DNA of 7,205 nt from Candidatus Poribacteria bacterium. Its GTDB lineage: Bacteria > Poribacteria > DTPJ01 > WJIO01. Position 1 is the stretch's first letter, and each line of letters opens with the position of its first letter. The stretch lies in contig WJIO01000083.1 of NCBI GenBank assembly GCA_014730235.1, forward strand, positions 1 to 7,205, given 5' to 3'. Under the pieces are notes generated by a model. That model saw only the letters and a list, made by a program, of their open reading frames with translations. It was not told the origin of the DNA and searched no databases. Both the position numbers and the translations under genes were made by a program. Below are positions 1-6,998 of the stretch, in pieces.

Positions 1-788
1 CCTATAAGCTCCCCTGATCTTGTAACTTTGAAACTCGTTCTTTTTATAACTTCCGCCAATCCACCCAGATCAATATCAGGATTATTCTTTATTGCTTTTT
101 CCATAGAACTTTTCACAACCCCGGGACCTGAAACGCCTACGTTAATCACACAATCAGGTTCACCAATTCCCATATAAGCACCGGCCATAAAAGGGTTATC
201 TTCCGGAATATTGGCAAAAACCACCAGTTTCGCGCATGCAAATCCATTTTGGTCTTTAGTCGCAAAGGCCGCTTCTTTAATTATATTACCCATAATTCTT
301 ACAGCTTCCATATTAATTCCGGCCTTTGTAGTTGCCAGGTTGATAGATGAACAAACTTTATTTGTTTGGGAAAGGGCGGCGGGTATAGATTCCATAAGCC
401 GTTGATCACCGGGTTTAATACCTTTATGCACTAAAGCCGAATATCCACCCACCAGGTCTATATTTATATCCTCACAAACCCGATCCAGTCTTTTGGCAAT
501 ATTCAAAAGCTCATCAAAACTGGAACCAGCAGCAATAAGGGCGATAGGACTTACAGCAATACGCTTGTTGACTATAGGTATACCATATTTCTGTTCAAAT
601 TTATCACATGCTTTTACAAGGTTCGAGGCTTTTGAATGTATTTTTCGGGCAATTTTATCGCCTATATCTCCGCTGCCTGCACATTCCCAGAGACTAATTC
701 CCATTGTTATAGCCCTTACATCCAGGTTCTCCATGCGGATCATTTCTATTGTTTCAATTATTTCCTCGTATCTGGGCAATTTATACAT
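1..788 (-). CDS. UPF0210 (DUF711) PFL-fold family protein, N-terminal 262 codons; C-terminus outside window
   Basis: The frame is open from ATG at 788 to the window edge, giving 262 codons plus two bases, and the translation matches UPF0210/DUF711 proteins. Family landmarks are an early NLDVRAITMGISL (residues 21-33), NKRIAVSPI near residue 74, NIPEDNPFMAGAYMGIGEPD at 193-212 and NVGVSGPG at 216-223. Family members are about 450 residues, so roughly 190 are missing beyond the edge. Known of the family: a fold related to pyruvate formate-lyase/ribonucleotide reductase barrels, no established reaction, and frequent pairing with a small ACT-domain gene, as here. No signal peptide is visible, so it is probably cytoplasmic. 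The start lies 3 bases after the TAG of the ACT gene (TAG GTG ATG). The only upstream AGG is too close to be a normal ribosome site, which suggests translational coupling. The adjacent GTG (789-791) is a possible start one codon earlier. Confidence 0.93.
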   Translation of the reverse strand, partial: MYKLPRYEEIIETIEMIRMENLDVRAITMGISLWECAGSGDIGDKIARKIHSKASNLVKACDKFEQKYGIPIVNKRIAVSPIALIAAGSSFDELLNIAKRLDRVCEDINIDLVGGYSALVHKGIKPGDQRLMESIPAALSQTNKVCSSINLATTKAGINMEAVRIMGNIIKEAAFATKDQNGFACAKLVVFANIPEDNPFMAGAYMGIGEPDCVINVGVSGPGVVKSSMEKAIKNNPDIDLGGLAEVIKRTSFKVTRSGELI

Positions 789-791
789 CAC

Positions 792-1367
792 CTACACTTT
801 ATGCATAGCGTTAAATATCTGCTGGCTTTGAATATTTATCTCAACTGAAAGTTCCCTGGAGCATTTATCAAGGGCTTCCCTGAGTTCAGATAGGCTAATA
901 CCGTCATCAATCTCCACCCTGGCCACCATAGTATATTCGGGTCTTCCGTGAATAATATAGGACGGTGCGGTAGAAAGTTCAAGTATATTGATATTTCTAT
1001 CAGCTAAAGCTTTTGTAACTCCCGCAACTATACCTATCCTGTCATCCCCGATAACAGTAATTACAACCCTATCCATGTCTGCATGCAGTTTTTTTCCGTA
1101 TTCTATTTCATCAGGAACGGTAGCAGGACGTAAGGAATAACTTACATCCATTTCACTACAGCGTATTTCCAGGCTGTTTCTTAAATCCTCAACATCAATA
1201 TCTTTAGTAGGCCGAAGAAGGAGTATCATGGCAAATTCATCACTAAGAACCGTTTGGTTTATCTCCTGAATATTACATTCATATTCATACAGCACATGAG
1301 AAATACCGGCAACAATACCCGGGTGGTCTTTTCCAACAACTGTCAGTATAAACCTATCATGTTGCAT
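792..1367 (-). CDS. tandem ACT-domain protein (duplicated UPF0237-like), probable partner of the UPF0210 protein
   Basis: This 191-residue protein has two ACT domains. The first spans about residues 5-80 and carries VVGKDHPGIVAGISHVL (10-26) and INQTVLSDEFAM (36-47). The second spans about 99-180 and carries VIGDDRIGIVAGVTKAL (105-121). It ends NIQSQQIFNAMHKV, a tail typical of single-domain UPF0237 proteins. The glycine-rich loop after the first strand, which forms the ligand site in ACT regulators, is intact in both halves. ACT domains usually bind amino acids or other small metabolites. GcvR of E. coli has a similar size and double-ACT layout, but the UPF0237 tail and the adjacent UPF0210 gene argue for the latter family. 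No DNA-binding domain is seen. The start is ATG at 1367 with GGAG at 1378-1381 (10-base spacing). The ligand is unknown. Confidence 0.93.
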   Translation of the reverse strand: MQHDRFILTVVGKDHPGIVAGISHVLYEYECNIQEINQTVLSDEFAMILLLRPTKDIDVEDLRNSLEIRCSEMDVSYSLRPATVPDEIEYGKKLHADMDRVVITVIGDDRIGIVAGVTKALADRNINILELSTAPSYIIHGRPEYTMVARVEIDDGISLSELREALDKCSRELSVEINIQSQQIFNAMHKV

Positions 1368-1507: not shown

Positions 1508-4500
1508 TTATATCTCGTAACCCAGGTCTTCACCGGTTATCTTTTGTAAAGCAATAGCAGCCTCATAGTGCATATTACCCTGAGTATTTTCAAGCGTATC
1601 CCTGAGGGCGGGTACAGCCTTCTGACTCCCGGCATCACCCAATGCTCTTGCCGCAGTATATCTGACGCTGTTAGCTTTACCTGTGTCCTGAACAGTCTCT
1701 ATCAAAGCTGCAATTCCAGCCAGTCTATTTATTTTGCCAAGTCCAATAGCTGATTGTATTTTAACACTGTCAGTAGCATCACTAAGGCCGTCTATCAAAG
1801 CCTGTTCTGCCGATGGATCAGCAATAACGCCCAGAGCTGTGGCCGAATCACGCCTGACAACCTCTTCTGCGTCATTTTTCAGTTTATCTATCAAAGGTTG
1901 GATCACCTCTTTTCGACCGCTTTCACCCAGGGCCAAAGCTGCTCCCTGCCTTATAGCTACTGTGGCATTATCAAGCATTTCTATCAACAAGGGAATTTCA
2001 TCTGTGCCGCTCAGAGCCATCATTCCAGCGGAACGTATAGAGGCTGAATACCATGTATCATTAACTCTTTCCTTGACTATATCGGGAACTGAAGAAATAT
2101 CCAGCTTACCAACAGCATGACCGACCTGGATCCATACAGCATCCGATTCGTTCTCATCACTTAAACGTTGGATCAAAAGGGATGAAGCTCTGCTATCACC
2201 AATTTCACCCAGAGCCTTTGCTGCATTAGCTCTTATTGTATTTGGTTCTTTCATATCGCCCAAAATTCCCATTAGCTTTAAGACCGCGGAATTTGCTTTA
2301 ATAGTACCCAACGCTGTTATTGCATTTTGTCTTATAGTCAGATCGTCTTCCAGAGCACCGGTCAATACATCAGCAACAGCAACTCCGTCATATCCTATGC
2401 TGGCCAGAGATGATATCGCATTTACACGAAGTGAATCATCTTCTGTATCACTTCCCACGATCTCAGCCAGAGAAGCAGAAGCCCTTTTGTCTTTAATTAA
2501 TCCTAGTGCAACCACAGCATTATTGCGAATGGATTGAATACCAGAATCCAGTGACTGAATCAATGGCATTATACCGCGCTCATCTTTTATTTTGCCGAGA
2601 GCTTCGGCTGCATTGGCCCTTACTGTAACCCATTCATCTTCATTTCCAAGAAGCTCTACCAGGTTATCCACAGCCCTTCTATCGGTTATAAGTCCCAGGG
2701 ATTTAGCGGCTTCACTTCTCACGACAACGCTCTCATCCTCAAGAGCAGAATTCAGAGCTTCTGTAGCATCAGCACTGGCAATTAACCCCAGAGTCTTGGC
2801 TACTTTACCTTTGGGTACTGCGTCGATCTCTGGATTATTAAGGACATCTATCAGTGGTTGAACAGCCGGACCTGCAATTTTATCCAGCGCAGTTATTGCC
2901 TGGTTGACAACAGCATCTGCTTCAGGCTCATCATCCTTACCCTCAACAATTACATCAATAAGATCATCAACAGCGTTTTTGTTGGCAATTTCACCCAGTG
3001 ACCATGTGGCCATAACTCTTGCCGACTCATATTTGTCATTTCTCATTGTATCAATAAGCACGTCCACAGAATCAGTACTTTTAAGAGTACCCCTGCCAAG
3101 TGCGCTGGCAGCTTCACTGCGAACAATTCCACTATCATCATCTTTAAGGGTTTTAACAAGGGCTGACCTTGCATCGGCATTATCAAGCTCATAAAGAGCG
3201 GTAGCAGCATTTTTTCTGACTGCTGCGCTTTTATCTTTTCTCACTGCGCGCATAAGCGCCGAAAGTGCATTTTCACCTTTAACTTTTCCCAGCGCCAGGG
3301 CTGCTGCACTTCGGATAGAACTTCTTTCTTCCTGTTCAATTTCCCTGTCTTCATAAGATACCAGACCTATCAACTCATTGGCTTCAGCTTCTTCCCCGGC
3401 TTTAACATATATCTTTACCAGTTCACCCTTGCTGGGAGCCTTAACCTGCTGACCTGTGGATGTCTCTGCCAGAACAGTAACATTGGATACCAGATCGTCA
3501 GAACCTTCCTCCTCATTCCATTTGGTAACAGTTCCCTTTTCCGGCATTAATATACCTGTAACGATCTCGCCCTTTAAAAGTCCCACAAGGGCTTCACTGG
3601 GCCAGGAATTTTCCATTGTACGAAGAGCCGTTGCGGCAGTTTTTCTTATTCCATCTTTCTCATATTCATCTATTAATATTTTTACCAGAAGCCCTAGGGC
3701 CTCAGTATCTTTTAAAGTGCCAAGGGAGGTAATAGCTGAATCCCTGATCTTCTCTCGCTCTTTTTTGTCCATAACAATCGACATCAAAGGCTTAGTCGCT
3801 CTTTTATCGTTTATAGTTCCAAGGGAAGCGGCTGCATTCGCCCTGGTAACAGCATCCTCATCTTTCAAAGCTTCTATTAGTTGTGGTACTGCACGTCTAT
3901 CCTTAAGAGTACCAAGAGAATCAGCTGCCATAGAGCGAAGGCTTTTTCTCTCATCTTTCAGTGCGGCAATCAAAGGTTCAACTGCCCGATCATCACCAAT
4001 AGAGCCTAAAATGGAAGCAGCGTTTTCAACTGCATTATTATTTCTGCTGTTTTTTAACACATCTATCAAAGGTTCAACAGCAGCAGGACCGATATCAACT
4101 AAAGCAGAAGAAGCGCCAGACCTTACAGAAGCGGCATTAGCCTTTTCAGTCTCTGTGGCATCAAAAGTCGTTTCCCTTTGCATGGCCACAATCAATGATG
4201 GTATTGCATCTGGATCGCCAATTGTACCCAGTATAGAAGCCGCAGAAACCTGTAATGCTGTGCGCTTTGATAATTCTTTGACATATTCATCACCAATCTT
4301 ATCTCCGATAAAATCGGTGGAAGGAAGCTGGATACCTTCAGCTTCAGTATTCAAGACTTCTATAAGTTTGGGAACAACTGGTTTTCCTATCTTAATCAGG
4401 GCGTTATTTGCGCTTGTTTTTACATATGAGTTATTATCAGCCAGTAGTTCTATGAGAAGGTCTATTCCTGTATCATCCTCTATAGCACCCAATATATCAG

Positions 4501-5386
4501 CAGCAGCTATACGTACCTGAGCCATCTCGTTTTTCATAGCCTTGTGCAGAGCTTCTACCATCTTATCTCCGCCGATCATACGAAGGGCAACAGGTATATA
4601 AAATTTAACTCCGGGATCCTCGTCAGTTAGTAATTCAACTACAGGATCAATTGCTCTGTCGTCGCCTATCTTACCCAGTGCAATAACAGCCTGTCGTCGA
4701 ACTATACGGTTTTCATTTTGTAAAGCTGCTATAAGACCCTCAAATGTTATATCCTTAAAAGACACCAGAAGGTCAACTACTTTTCCCCGAATTTCAGTAT
4801 TATGAACTTTAAGACATTCAACAAGCAAATCAACAGCAGTTTTACCCGAACTGCTTATCCAACTGGAATCAGATACCAGGATCATTGTCGCTGGCTCAAT
4901 GCTTGATATCCATTTCCTTTCCAGTTTAACAAGATTATCTTCATCGTCATCTGTGCGAAGGTCCTCATCAATAGCTTCCAGCTCTTTTATTTGCTCTTCA
5001 ATAGAATTAACCATGGATATAATATCTGAAATGGCCTTTTGTCGTGAAGAGGAATCAGCGCTGGAGCTGATAATTTCAAGGGCCTTAAGGGGGCATAAAG
5101 CTTCCGGATTCCCGGATTCCACCTGTAAAGCCAGGTTCAGTTCGTTCTTAAGCTGACTTACGTCCTGACTTTCTTTATATTTACCTTGCTGTATAAGAGT
5201 TCTGGCGTTTGCCAGATTTTCATTTTCTTTCTCACCACAACCAGCCCACAATAAGGCACAGAATACAACAAGTGAGAAAAATGTCAAAAATCGTAAGACT
5301 CTGGATGAGTTGAAAAGCTCTTTATAAGCATTAAACTCATTCTTGGGTCTACGGTTCAAATTTACTCCAAATCTATTATGGATCAT
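1508..5386 (-). CDS. giant HEAT-repeat lipoprotein with inserted lipoyl-like domain
   Basis: The protein has 1292 residues. Residues 1-49 form a long basic N-region and a hydrophobic core (about 33-47) ending WAGC, so Cys50 is a likely lipidation site. Tryptophan at -3 of the lipobox is atypical. Residues about 55-104 look like one or two TPR-type helical hairpins, followed by an acidic helical stretch (115-160). From about 196 to the end run roughly 30 HEAT/PBS-lyase-type repeats of about 31 residues with the pattern RxxAxxALGxIxDxRAVxPLIxxLxD. They are interrupted at 606-680 by a barrel-sandwich-like segment and by a shorter loop at 350-370. Such solenoids bind proteins; no catalytic motif is visible, so a membrane-anchored scaffold is inferred. 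It is not a phycobilin lyase by context. The start ATG at 5386 has GGGAG at 5396-5400, 9 bases away. A TTG at codon 10, itself preceded by GGAG, is a weaker alternative. The partner is unknown. Confidence 0.92.
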   Translation of the reverse strand: MIHNRFGVNLNRRPKNEFNAYKELFNSSRVLRFLTFFSLVVFCALLWAGCGEKENENLANARTLIQQGKYKESQDVSQLKNELNLALQVESGNPEALCPLKALEIISSSADSSSRQKAISDIISMVNSIEEQIKELEAIDEDLRTDDDEDNLVKLERKWISSIEPATMILVSDSSWISSSGKTAVDLLVECLKVHNTEIRGKVVDLLVSFKDITFEGLIAALQNENRIVRRQAVIALGKIGDDRAIDPVVELLTDEDPGVKFYIPVALRMIGGDKMVEALHKAMKNEMAQVRIAAADILGAIEDDTGIDLLIELLADNNSYVKTSANNALIKIGKPVVPKLIEVLNTEAEGIQLPSTDFIGDKIGDEYVKELSKRTALQVSAASILGTIGDPDAIPSLIVAMQRETTFDATETEKANAASVRSGASSALVDIGPAAVEPLIDVLKNSRNNNAVENAASILGSIGDDRAVEPLIAALKDERKSLRSMAADSLGTLKDRRAVPQLIEALKDEDAVTRANAAASLGTINDKRATKPLMSIVMDKKEREKIRDSAITSLGTLKDTEALGLLVKILIDEYEKDGIRKTAATALRTMENSWPSEALVGLLKGEIVTGILMPEKGTVTKWNEEEGSDDLVSNVTVLAETSTGQQVKAPSKGELVKIYVKAGEEAEANELIGLVSYEDREIEQEERSSIRSAAALALGKVKGENALSALMRAVRKDKSAAVRKNAATALYELDNADARSALVKTLKDDDSGIVRSEAASALGRGTLKSTDSVDVLIDTMRNDKYESARVMATWSLGEIANKNAVDDLIDVIVEGKDDEPEADAVVNQAITALDKIAGPAVQPLIDVLNNPEIDAVPKGKVAKTLGLIASADATEALNSALEDESVVVRSEAAKSLGLITDRRAVDNLVELLGNEDEWVTVRANAAEALGKIKDERGIMPLIQSLDSGIQSIRNNAVVALGLIKDKRASASLAEIVGSDTEDDSLRVNAISSLASIGYDGVAVADVLTGALEDDLTIRQNAITALGTIKANSAVLKLMGILGDMKEPNTIRANAAKALGEIGDSRASSLLIQRLSDENESDAVWIQVGHAVGKLDISSVPDIVKERVNDTWYSASIRSAGMMALSGTDEIPLLIEMLDNATVAIRQGAALALGESGRKEVIQPLIDKLKNDAEEVVRRDSATALGVIADPSAEQALIDGLSDATDSVKIQSAIGLGKINRLAGIAALIETVQDTGKANSVRYTAARALGDAGSQKAVPALRDTLENTQGNMHYEAAIALQKITGEDLGYEI
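3347..3571 (-). other. lipoyl/biotinyl-type barrel-sandwich-hybrid segment within the HEAT protein (residues about 606-680)
   Basis: This segment lacks HEAT periodicity and is rich in beta-formers, G and P. Two halves echo each other: MPEKGTVTKW...EEG (614-628) and APSKGELVKIYVKAG (650-664). This is the quasi-twofold pattern of lipoyl/biotinyl domains and of membrane-fusion-protein hybrids. It also aligns with the E2 lipoyl-domain layout: GTxxKW, then VLAE (638-641), then VKAPxxGxLxKIxVxxG. The hairpin that carries the lipoyl lysine in E2 (the DKA motif) reads AETSTGQQ here, with no lysine and about three residues fewer, so attachment of a cofactor is not expected. It sits exactly between two HEAT units, after the helix ending EALVGLLKGE and before IRSAAALALGKV (691-702), so the solenoid can continue around it. 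Confidence 0.65.
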
Positions 5387-5574: not shown

Positions 5575-6912
5575 CTACCTGATAAACTGAGCATGGCCTT
5601 TTCCTAACAACTGACCTGTTTTTGTATCGCGTATATAGGAAGAAGCCACAATATTTCCATTTGCTCCCCTTATAACTACCGTTCCCAGATTTGAACCTTC
5701 AAAGTAACTCTTCATCAATTCGTCTTTTCTTTCGTAAGGATCAAGTTGAAGTTGCCTGACACCAAGTTTCTTACCTTCATCATTGAAGAAAAATAGTTCT
5801 AAAGCAACAGACTCCTGTCCGGTATTTAAAAGTGAAAGAAAATCCTGGGAATTTTTCAGAGGAGTAAAGTGACTTATAAACAAAAAATCTTTGTTTCCAC
5901 CGACTGCCGGAATTCCTAATATCCCCTCCGGCCCTTTTTCCAGATAATCAGCGATGATACGGGAAGTACCACTTATATGTATTATGCCATTTTTCGCGTT
6001 TCTGATATAATCGGCAGGATCAATCAAGGCTGTACCATTTATAGGCAAAAGTTTTTCCAGTCTGTAGGAACCGTCATTACCAAGAAAACTAATTCTGACG
6101 GCAGGGCCTTCAGCATTAGTATCAGTAATAATAAGCCTGCTTTCTGTATCTGTATTGGCGGAAAACATATCTATAAATAACTCCCTGGATGGCATCCGGG
6201 CGGGAAAAGCAAAAACCAATCCCTCGGTGTCCCACGATTGACGATAATAAGGGATAACACTACCCCGAAAGTTTCTTATGGAAACTTTACCCAGCATTTC
6301 CCAGGGAATATAATCATCTACTTTTAAAATCAGTATACCATGAGGTCTAAGCATTTTGGGAACAACCCTGAGAAGTTCTCCACTTTTGCTGTAGAATTCC
6401 ATTTGTACCGCTGGCCCTGAACCAAAAGGATCTGATAAAACCAGCAGGCACGAATCGCTATCCAAAAACCTGAAGCAGTTTACAAAATATCGTCCTTCTT
6501 CAACAGGTGTCTGCAACGGAAGCATAAATACAGACCCATTACCCTGAAACTGCCAGTATTCACCAGAAATATTGGGACTGGATGACTTCAATACAATACT
6601 TCCTGGTGAATTCCTGAGATAGTTATCTACCTCAAACTGCAACTTGCCATTAGGAGGGAGTAATTTGCGTATAGAGGAAATATTACGGCCGTATTCATCA
6701 AAAAAAGCAACCTCTATCGAAGGTCCTTGACCGTTTAAATCTGTAACAAGAAGATATGTATGCCCGTCTTCCAAAGGTGGAACATGACCTATTGAAAAGG
6801 AATAAATTTCTGCCGAAGCTGTTAAATTGAAAAATAGTATTATAATTAAACCCAAACTATAAAATATCAGATTAGGAATTATTCTTATACTAAAAATTTT
6901 CGTTCTTGCCAT
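5575..6912 (-). CDS. secreted four-repeat beta-sandwich-like protein of unknown function
   Basis: From ATG at 6912 the protein has 445 residues. Residues 1-34 are a Sec-type signal peptide: basic start, hydrophobic core at about 15-30, and ASA before Glu35. The mature part contains four similar units beginning near residues 50, 151, 255 and 354, about 100 residues apart. Each has the pattern (L)LLxTDxxxxGPxxxxxFxxxxG, then a (L)LPPxG turn, a VDxYI segment and a strand ending in an aromatic-rich motif. Examples are LNGQGPSIEVAFFDEYG (59-75), FGSGPAVQMEFYSKSG (163-178) and NAEGPAVRISFLGNDG (266-281). The fourth unit is the most diverged (LNTGQESVALELFFFNDEGK). No catalytic residues or sorting signal are recognised. 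An extracytoplasmic binding or structural role is inferred. An in-frame GTG at 6960 would add 16 residues, but it has no good ribosome site and would put a charged stretch before the signal peptide. Confidence 0.88.
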   Translation of the reverse strand: MARTKIFSIRIIPNLIFYSLGLIIILFFNLTASAEIYSFSIGHVPPLEDGHTYLLVTDLNGQGPSIEVAFFDEYGRNISSIRKLLPPNGKLQFEVDNYLRNSPGSIVLKSSSPNISGEYWQFQGNGSVFMLPLQTPVEEGRYFVNCFRFLDSDSCLLVLSDPFGSGPAVQMEFYSKSGELLRVVPKMLRPHGILILKVDDYIPWEMLGKVSIRNFRGSVIPYYRQSWDTEGLVFAFPARMPSRELFIDMFSANTDTESRLIITDTNAEGPAVRISFLGNDGSYRLEKLLPINGTALIDPADYIRNAKNGIIHISGTSRIIADYLEKGPEGILGIPAVGGNKDFLFISHFTPLKNSQDFLSLLNTGQESVALELFFFNDEGKKLGVRQLQLDPYERKDELMKSYFEGSNLGTVVIRGANGNIVASSYIRDTKTGQLLGKGHAQFIR

Positions 6913-6920
6913 ATTATAAG

Positions 6921-6925
6921 CCTCT
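6921..6925 (-). promoter_or_regulatory. ribosome binding site that decides the start of the secreted protein gene
   Basis: AGAGG on the minus strand lies 8 bases before ATG at 6910-6912, within the purine-rich run GAGGAAGAGG. The upstream in-frame GTG (6958-6960) lacks a comparable site, so the shorter protein with a compact signal peptide is preferred. Confidence 0.7.
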
Positions 6926-6998
6926 TCCTCAAAGGATATTTTCCTGAGTGGCTTAATCACTTTAAGTAATTTTCAATAAATCTCTTCAACTTTTCTCC

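Follow-up and report, generated by a model that had tools for sequence, protein, structure and literature searches.

The window analysed here, one whole contig of 7205 bases from a 5.5 Mb MAG, encodes a HEAT-repeat lipoprotein of 1292 aa in which a 2-oxoacid dehydrogenase E2-type lipoyl-like domain (barrel-sandwich hybrid) interrupts a single helical repeat. The inserted domain (residues ~608–684; 3335..3565, minus strand) is probably an unmodified descendant of an E2-type lipoyl domain, put to new use on an exported scaffold as a docking knob specific to this lineage. The constraint on the domain, its lost carrier features and the envelope location of its host all fit such a reuse. The architecture is new but built of known parts, and it comes from a sparsely sampled lineage of the Poribacteria; a literature search for the combination of HEAT repeats with a lipoyl domain found no description in open-access papers, which does not prove its absence.

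The host gene lies at 1508..5386 on the minus strand and was identified by its match to Pfam HEAT_2 (E 1e-125, 17 stretches) and by orthologues that align with it end to end in 21 other Poribacteria genomes. Its product is laid out as a signal peptide, a lipobox cysteine and then a long HEAT solenoid of ~1100 residues, for which both Pfam and a repeat map give tandem A-B helical repeats of ~31 residues. The hydrophobic stretch of the signal peptide and the lipobox (residues 29–53, ...LLWAGCGEK, with Cys50; 5228..5302, minus strand) are a conserved feature, the cysteine being preceded by a hydrophobic stretch in 22/22 orthologues, as is characteristic of bacterial lipoproteins at the level of sequence. 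The protein is predicted to be exported and lipid-anchored, and it would presumably undergo lipoprotein processing and lipidation. The HEAT_2 match and the conservation of the lipobox thus uphold the description of the host as a HEAT lipoprotein given in a first-pass annotation of this DNA.

A profile built from the N-terminal region outside the HEAT repeats found relatives of the host in 27 other Poribacteria genomes. Twenty of these, all from other families, were fetched and aligned along their length (mostly 1240–1350 aa, 27–33% identity, one truncated at a contig end); adding the window copy and a relative from the same class gives the set of 22 orthologues. A scan of the genome collection with the full host protein gave no match. 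In most of the loci inspected (L069, L070, L076, L077, L078, L082 and L084–L087) the HEAT lipoprotein gene occurs directly after, or one gene after, a gene which we take to encode glycyl-tRNA synthetase, read by eye from its sequence without a family search. The gene upstream of the host in the window (5575..6960, minus strand) encodes a 461-aa predicted secreted protein with a weak DUF5719-like match, below the Pfam cut-off, and its homologues in two other families (phmmer E 1e-29 for the neighbour in L078 and 4e-14 for that in L070) sit between the putative glycyl-tRNA synthetase gene and the HEAT gene. This often preserved gene order supports the orthology of the HEAT lipoproteins, and the host is, on sequence grounds, a member of a Poribacteria-wide HEAT lipoprotein family with a conserved lipobox. 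Downstream of the HEAT gene (window 3–1367, minus strand) are genes for an ACT-domain protein and then a DUF711 protein, a neighbourhood unlike that of the inspected orthologues.

Residues 606–680 of the host spell IVTGILMPEKGTVTKWNEEEGSDDLVSNVTVLAETSTGQQVKAPSKGELVKIYVKAGEEAEANELIGLVSYED, and it was here that the first-pass annotation had recognised the layout of a lipoyl domain with two quasi-symmetric halves. Both halves (MPEKGTVTKW and APSKGELVKI) are present at this place, with the boundaries of the domain revised to ~608–684. When searched alone against PF00364 (Biotin_lipoyl; curated cut-off 22.1 bits), the window segment scored 18.8 bits (E 0.0015), below the cut-off, while the corresponding segment of the orthologue from the same class scored 34.3 bits (E 2e-8), above it, placing the orthologue in the superfamily. 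The window copy is tied to PF00364 through this orthologue, with which it shares 48% identity over the domain, and the profile of the two copies aligned to nine Poribacteria E2 lipoyl domains at 98.2% (E 4e-14, hhalign). With an HMM built on 23 lipoyl domains of Poribacteria, the window segment scored 24.0 bits and the orthologue 44.5, against 11.6 and 10.2, respectively, for the best of ~5000 shuffles of each, and when the whole host protein was scanned the top-scoring stretches all fell on this segment.

Individual matches pointed in the same direction. The orthologue segment matched both lipoyl domains of a PDH E2 in the PDB (9y7v, phmmer, 2e-11), and the window segment alone matched a genuine E2 of the related genome (E 1.5e-4; BLASTP 3e-8). 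A plasmid search with the orthologue segment returned E2 genes at ~40% identity, these being solely of E2 type among the annotated matches listed, and the other matches of the two-copy profile in 81 Poribacteria genomes lay in frames of 404–495 aa, the size of an E2 protein. Given the PF00364 score of the orthologue, the PDB and E2 matches, the pair profile and the HMM scores relative to the shuffles, the homology of the segment to E2-type lipoyl domains can be taken as settled at the level of sequence, and the lipoyl-type ancestry first proposed holds. An interpretation as low-complexity or loop sequence was rejected, as the core residues of the domain are conserved in the alignment of the two copies.

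A structural model built with E2 rows in the alignment (mean pLDDT 81; 76–93 for 10-residue blocks of the domain) shows, between helices A and B, eight strands forming a flattened barrel, the E2 rows steering this result; because these rows are in its alignment, the model is not independent of the homology. A model from the window copy and one orthologue without E2 rows was poor (pLDDT 48). The beta part of the former superposed on the biotin carrier 2d5d, which was absent from the alignment, over 67 residues at 0.9 Å (Z 12.8), and its helical flanks superposed on alphaRep solenoids over 89 contiguous residues at 1.7 Å (Z 13.3), the superposition passing over the beta domain. In agreement with the superposition, the Foldseek list for the model was topped by the adaptor-type BesA together with biotin carrier and lipoyl domains. 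The barrel-sandwich hybrid fold suggested earlier for this segment is thus supported by the model at residues 608–684.

The model is also near entries of the efflux adaptors MacAB-TolC, TMexCD1-TOprJ1 and AcrABZ-TolC (Z about 11.5), which share this fold, and several HlyD-type adaptors are encoded in the organism's own genome. It could be proposed on this basis that the segment is not of E2 type but a barrel-sandwich domain of the HlyD-type membrane-fusion proteins, assembling with efflux adaptors, but we consider this improbable. The domain is unbroken, its tip being a short turn in both alignment and model with none of the alpha-helical hairpin that splits the tip of membrane-fusion proteins, and an HlyD origin was rejected as the sequence matches favour the E2 and biotinyl families. 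Elsewhere in the genome (locus L015, contig C269 of G000), genes for a MarR-like regulator, a 192-aa HEAT-like protein and an HlyD-type adaptor lie side by side on one strand and form another pairing of HEAT repeats with a barrel-sandwich protein.

The position of the E2-type domain differs from that first reported. The insertion had been described as lying between two HEAT repeats, which is wrong, since it is one repeat that is split. The 'IR' motifs of helix B occur at 580 and 691, a spacing of 111 residues (31 + 80), and when SEALVGLLKGE was joined to EERSSIRSAAALALG the two scored as a single HEAT repeat with 26.3 bits, compared with 22.8 and 2.9 bits for the halves. From this spacing and the joined-repeat score, the 80-residue domain lies within one HEAT repeat, in the loop between helix A (residues 597–606; 3569..3598, minus strand), recognised by the repeat HMM on the joined halves and as a helix in the model, and helix B (residues 686–700; 3287..3331, minus strand), recognised by the repeat map, the model and the joined-repeat score.

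The orthologue sharing this domain comes from another Candidatus Poribacteria MAG (record DTPJ01000393), which belongs to a different family of the same class, and is 53% identical to the host overall. The window is a single contig of 7205 bases from a MAG with an estimated contamination of 4.8%, circumstances under which an assembly or gene-prediction artefact could join a HEAT gene to part of an E2. Here such an origin has a negligible probability; no break interrupts the reading frame, and an assembly chimera is refuted by the second genome, which was assembled independently, belongs to another family and has this architecture at the identical position. Identity between the two copies is 48% in the domain, 49% in the non-HEAT N-terminal region and 53–60% in the HEAT repeats. 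The insert is therefore not a poorly conserved loop, but its lysine-free tip is not shared by the single orthologue. This conservation is read from two domain-bearing sequences, a thin sampling.

Among the genomes examined, the lipoyl-like domain is restricted to the window's class, where it was found in 2/2 genomes, and it is lacking from the 20 orthologues of other families, none of which scored above 1.2 bits over its full length with the 23-domain lipoyl HMM. A scan of the genome collection with the two-copy profile found solely the known orthologue as a further host of this architecture. The 20 orthologues of other families have instead a different insert of 38–69 residues at exactly the same site, typically STRFDEISDFQRHMKRKYKTLDALR...YRTWGELKPIPSLVR, which is well conserved in those families, gave no Pfam family above cut-off and did not score with the lipoyl profile. 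As judged from these alignments, the A-B loop site is an insertion point across the family. One of these orthologues (L082, genome G007) has an extra insert of ~80 residues one loop downstream, after ...SEAAIALGKIRG, also with no Pfam match.

A loop so tolerant of unrelated inserts, together with the lack of a known partner for the domain, lends some weight to the main rival explanation, namely that a lipoyl domain was captured there by chance and remains as a neutral or structural spacer, folding by itself and leaving the solenoid undisturbed. We regard this as unlikely. A purely neutral insert would be expected to decay faster, whereas two genomes from different families have retained this domain at an identity close to that of the rest of the protein, with its core residues conserved, and the alternative insert shows good conservation of its own in other families.

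Those features of the domain that bear on cofactor carriage also fit its reuse as a docking part. The degenerate tip hairpin (ETSTGQQVKAP, residues 641–651; 3434..3466, minus strand) is three residues shorter than in the orthologue and the E2 domains, with the gap falling between ETSTG and QQVKAP, and is without lysine, exactly as had been noted from the sequence. The lysine that a carrier has in its beta4–beta5 turn is thus missing from the window copy, so that lipoate cannot be attached there at the canonical site. In the orthologue this turn does contain a lysine, its tip SRGKGKQE aligning ungapped with TTDKVDVE of E2 so that the lysine falls in the lipoyl-lysine column. The beta1–beta2 loop, a long surface loop beside the lysine in functional carriers, takes part in E1 recognition (PMC6270654); in both copies it is six residues shorter than in E2 domains.

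NMR and mutagenesis indicate that the correct positioning of the lysine is needed for lipoylation and outweighs the flanking residues (PMC6270654), and LipA and an E2 catalytic domain are encoded in both genomes. With its lysine exactly in the lipoyl-lysine column, the domain of the orthologue could in principle carry lipoate, and one could conceive of it as still being a cofactor carrier, at least in that organism, in the form of an exported, lipoylated lipoprotein with swinging-arm redox activity outside the cytoplasm. The shorter, lysine-free tip of the window copy and the short recognition loop of both copies speak against this, as does the conserved lipobox. Sec export passes unfolded chains, whereas lipoylation is cytoplasmic, and with export predicted from the lipobox the cytoplasmic lipoylation of a folded domain is unlikely. 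We therefore consider a carrier role very doubtful and infer that the domain is unmodified in vivo. It would be equally speculative to propose that the captured domain passed through a lysine-bearing extracytoplasmic stage, still seen in the orthologue, before the window species lost the lysine and the domain became purely a docking part. Were the lysine of the orthologue indeed modified, it would represent an extracytoplasmic lipoylated lipoprotein. In the same genome as the window, an E2-type lipoyl domain in which the lysine is kept (ETEKFAIE; locus L013, contig C397 of G000, 16882–17112, minus strand) occurs in a stand-alone protein of 136 aa, encoded on the same strand as and just upstream of the gene for a protein resembling two thioredoxin/TlpA-like domains.

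Taking the docking knob as the best explanation, an E2-type lipoyl domain of the 2-oxoacid dehydrogenases would have been inserted into the A-B loop of one HEAT repeat. In lipoyl domains the two termini are close to each other, on the side away from the tip (PMC6270654), and this proximity would allow the domain to be grafted into a short A-B loop with the solenoid left intact. The domain would then most likely project from the edge of the solenoid as a compact knob, the tip that once held the cofactor facing outwards. In the window organism cofactor carriage would have been lost with the tip lysine, the trimming of the E1-recognition loop and the predicted exit from the cytoplasm, and the knob would serve as a lineage-specific docking surface for proteins, at a site holding another insert elsewhere in the family. 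This docking function is suggested by elimination and by the likeness to efflux adaptors, the lipoyl domains of which are unmodified and stabilise self-assembly (PMC8277102).

A metabolic carrier domain has here been captured within one helical repeat of a predicted exported lipoprotein, where sister families have another insert. Such a natural domain swap may be used to study how solenoid scaffolds change partners, and the pair of copies with and without lysine to study the transition of a cofactor carrier to a structural role. The host family spans an uncultivated phylum, often beside the presumed glycyl-tRNA synthetase gene.

The inserted domain is most similar to the lipoyl domain of E2 (PF00364), with which it shares the sequence family, the eight-strand barrel of two-fold quasi-symmetry and the MP...GTVxKW...VxAPxxGxLxKI layout; it differs in having two extra residues between beta2 and beta4 and in its setting, an exported HEAT protein with no E2 catalytic domain. 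The lipoyl domains of the HlyD, AcrA and MacA adaptors are similarly unmodified barrel-sandwich hybrids in an envelope protein, their use in assembly being that of the adaptors, but their tip contains an alpha-hairpin and they lie beside a beta-barrel, whereas here the whole domain is within a HEAT repeat and its sequence is closer to E2. The repeats of the host resemble those of CpcE-like and alphaRep HEAT/PBS-lyase repeat proteins in their ~31-residue length and VRxxAAxALG helix B, although the solenoid here is of ~1100 residues, follows a lipobox and has one of its repeats interrupted by a folded beta domain. Lineage-specific insertion of such folds has a precedent in the barrel-sandwich domains inserted into RNA polymerase and into metabolic proteins (PMC11515920). 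These HABAS domains, defined as a four-stranded open sheet with a GD-box-like motif (PMC11515920), are likewise lineage-specific domains of barrel-sandwich type in unrelated hosts, among them RNA polymerase beta'. By description, the present case differs in that the host is a helical-repeat lipoprotein and the insert a full E2-type lipoyl domain rather than a four-stranded unit.
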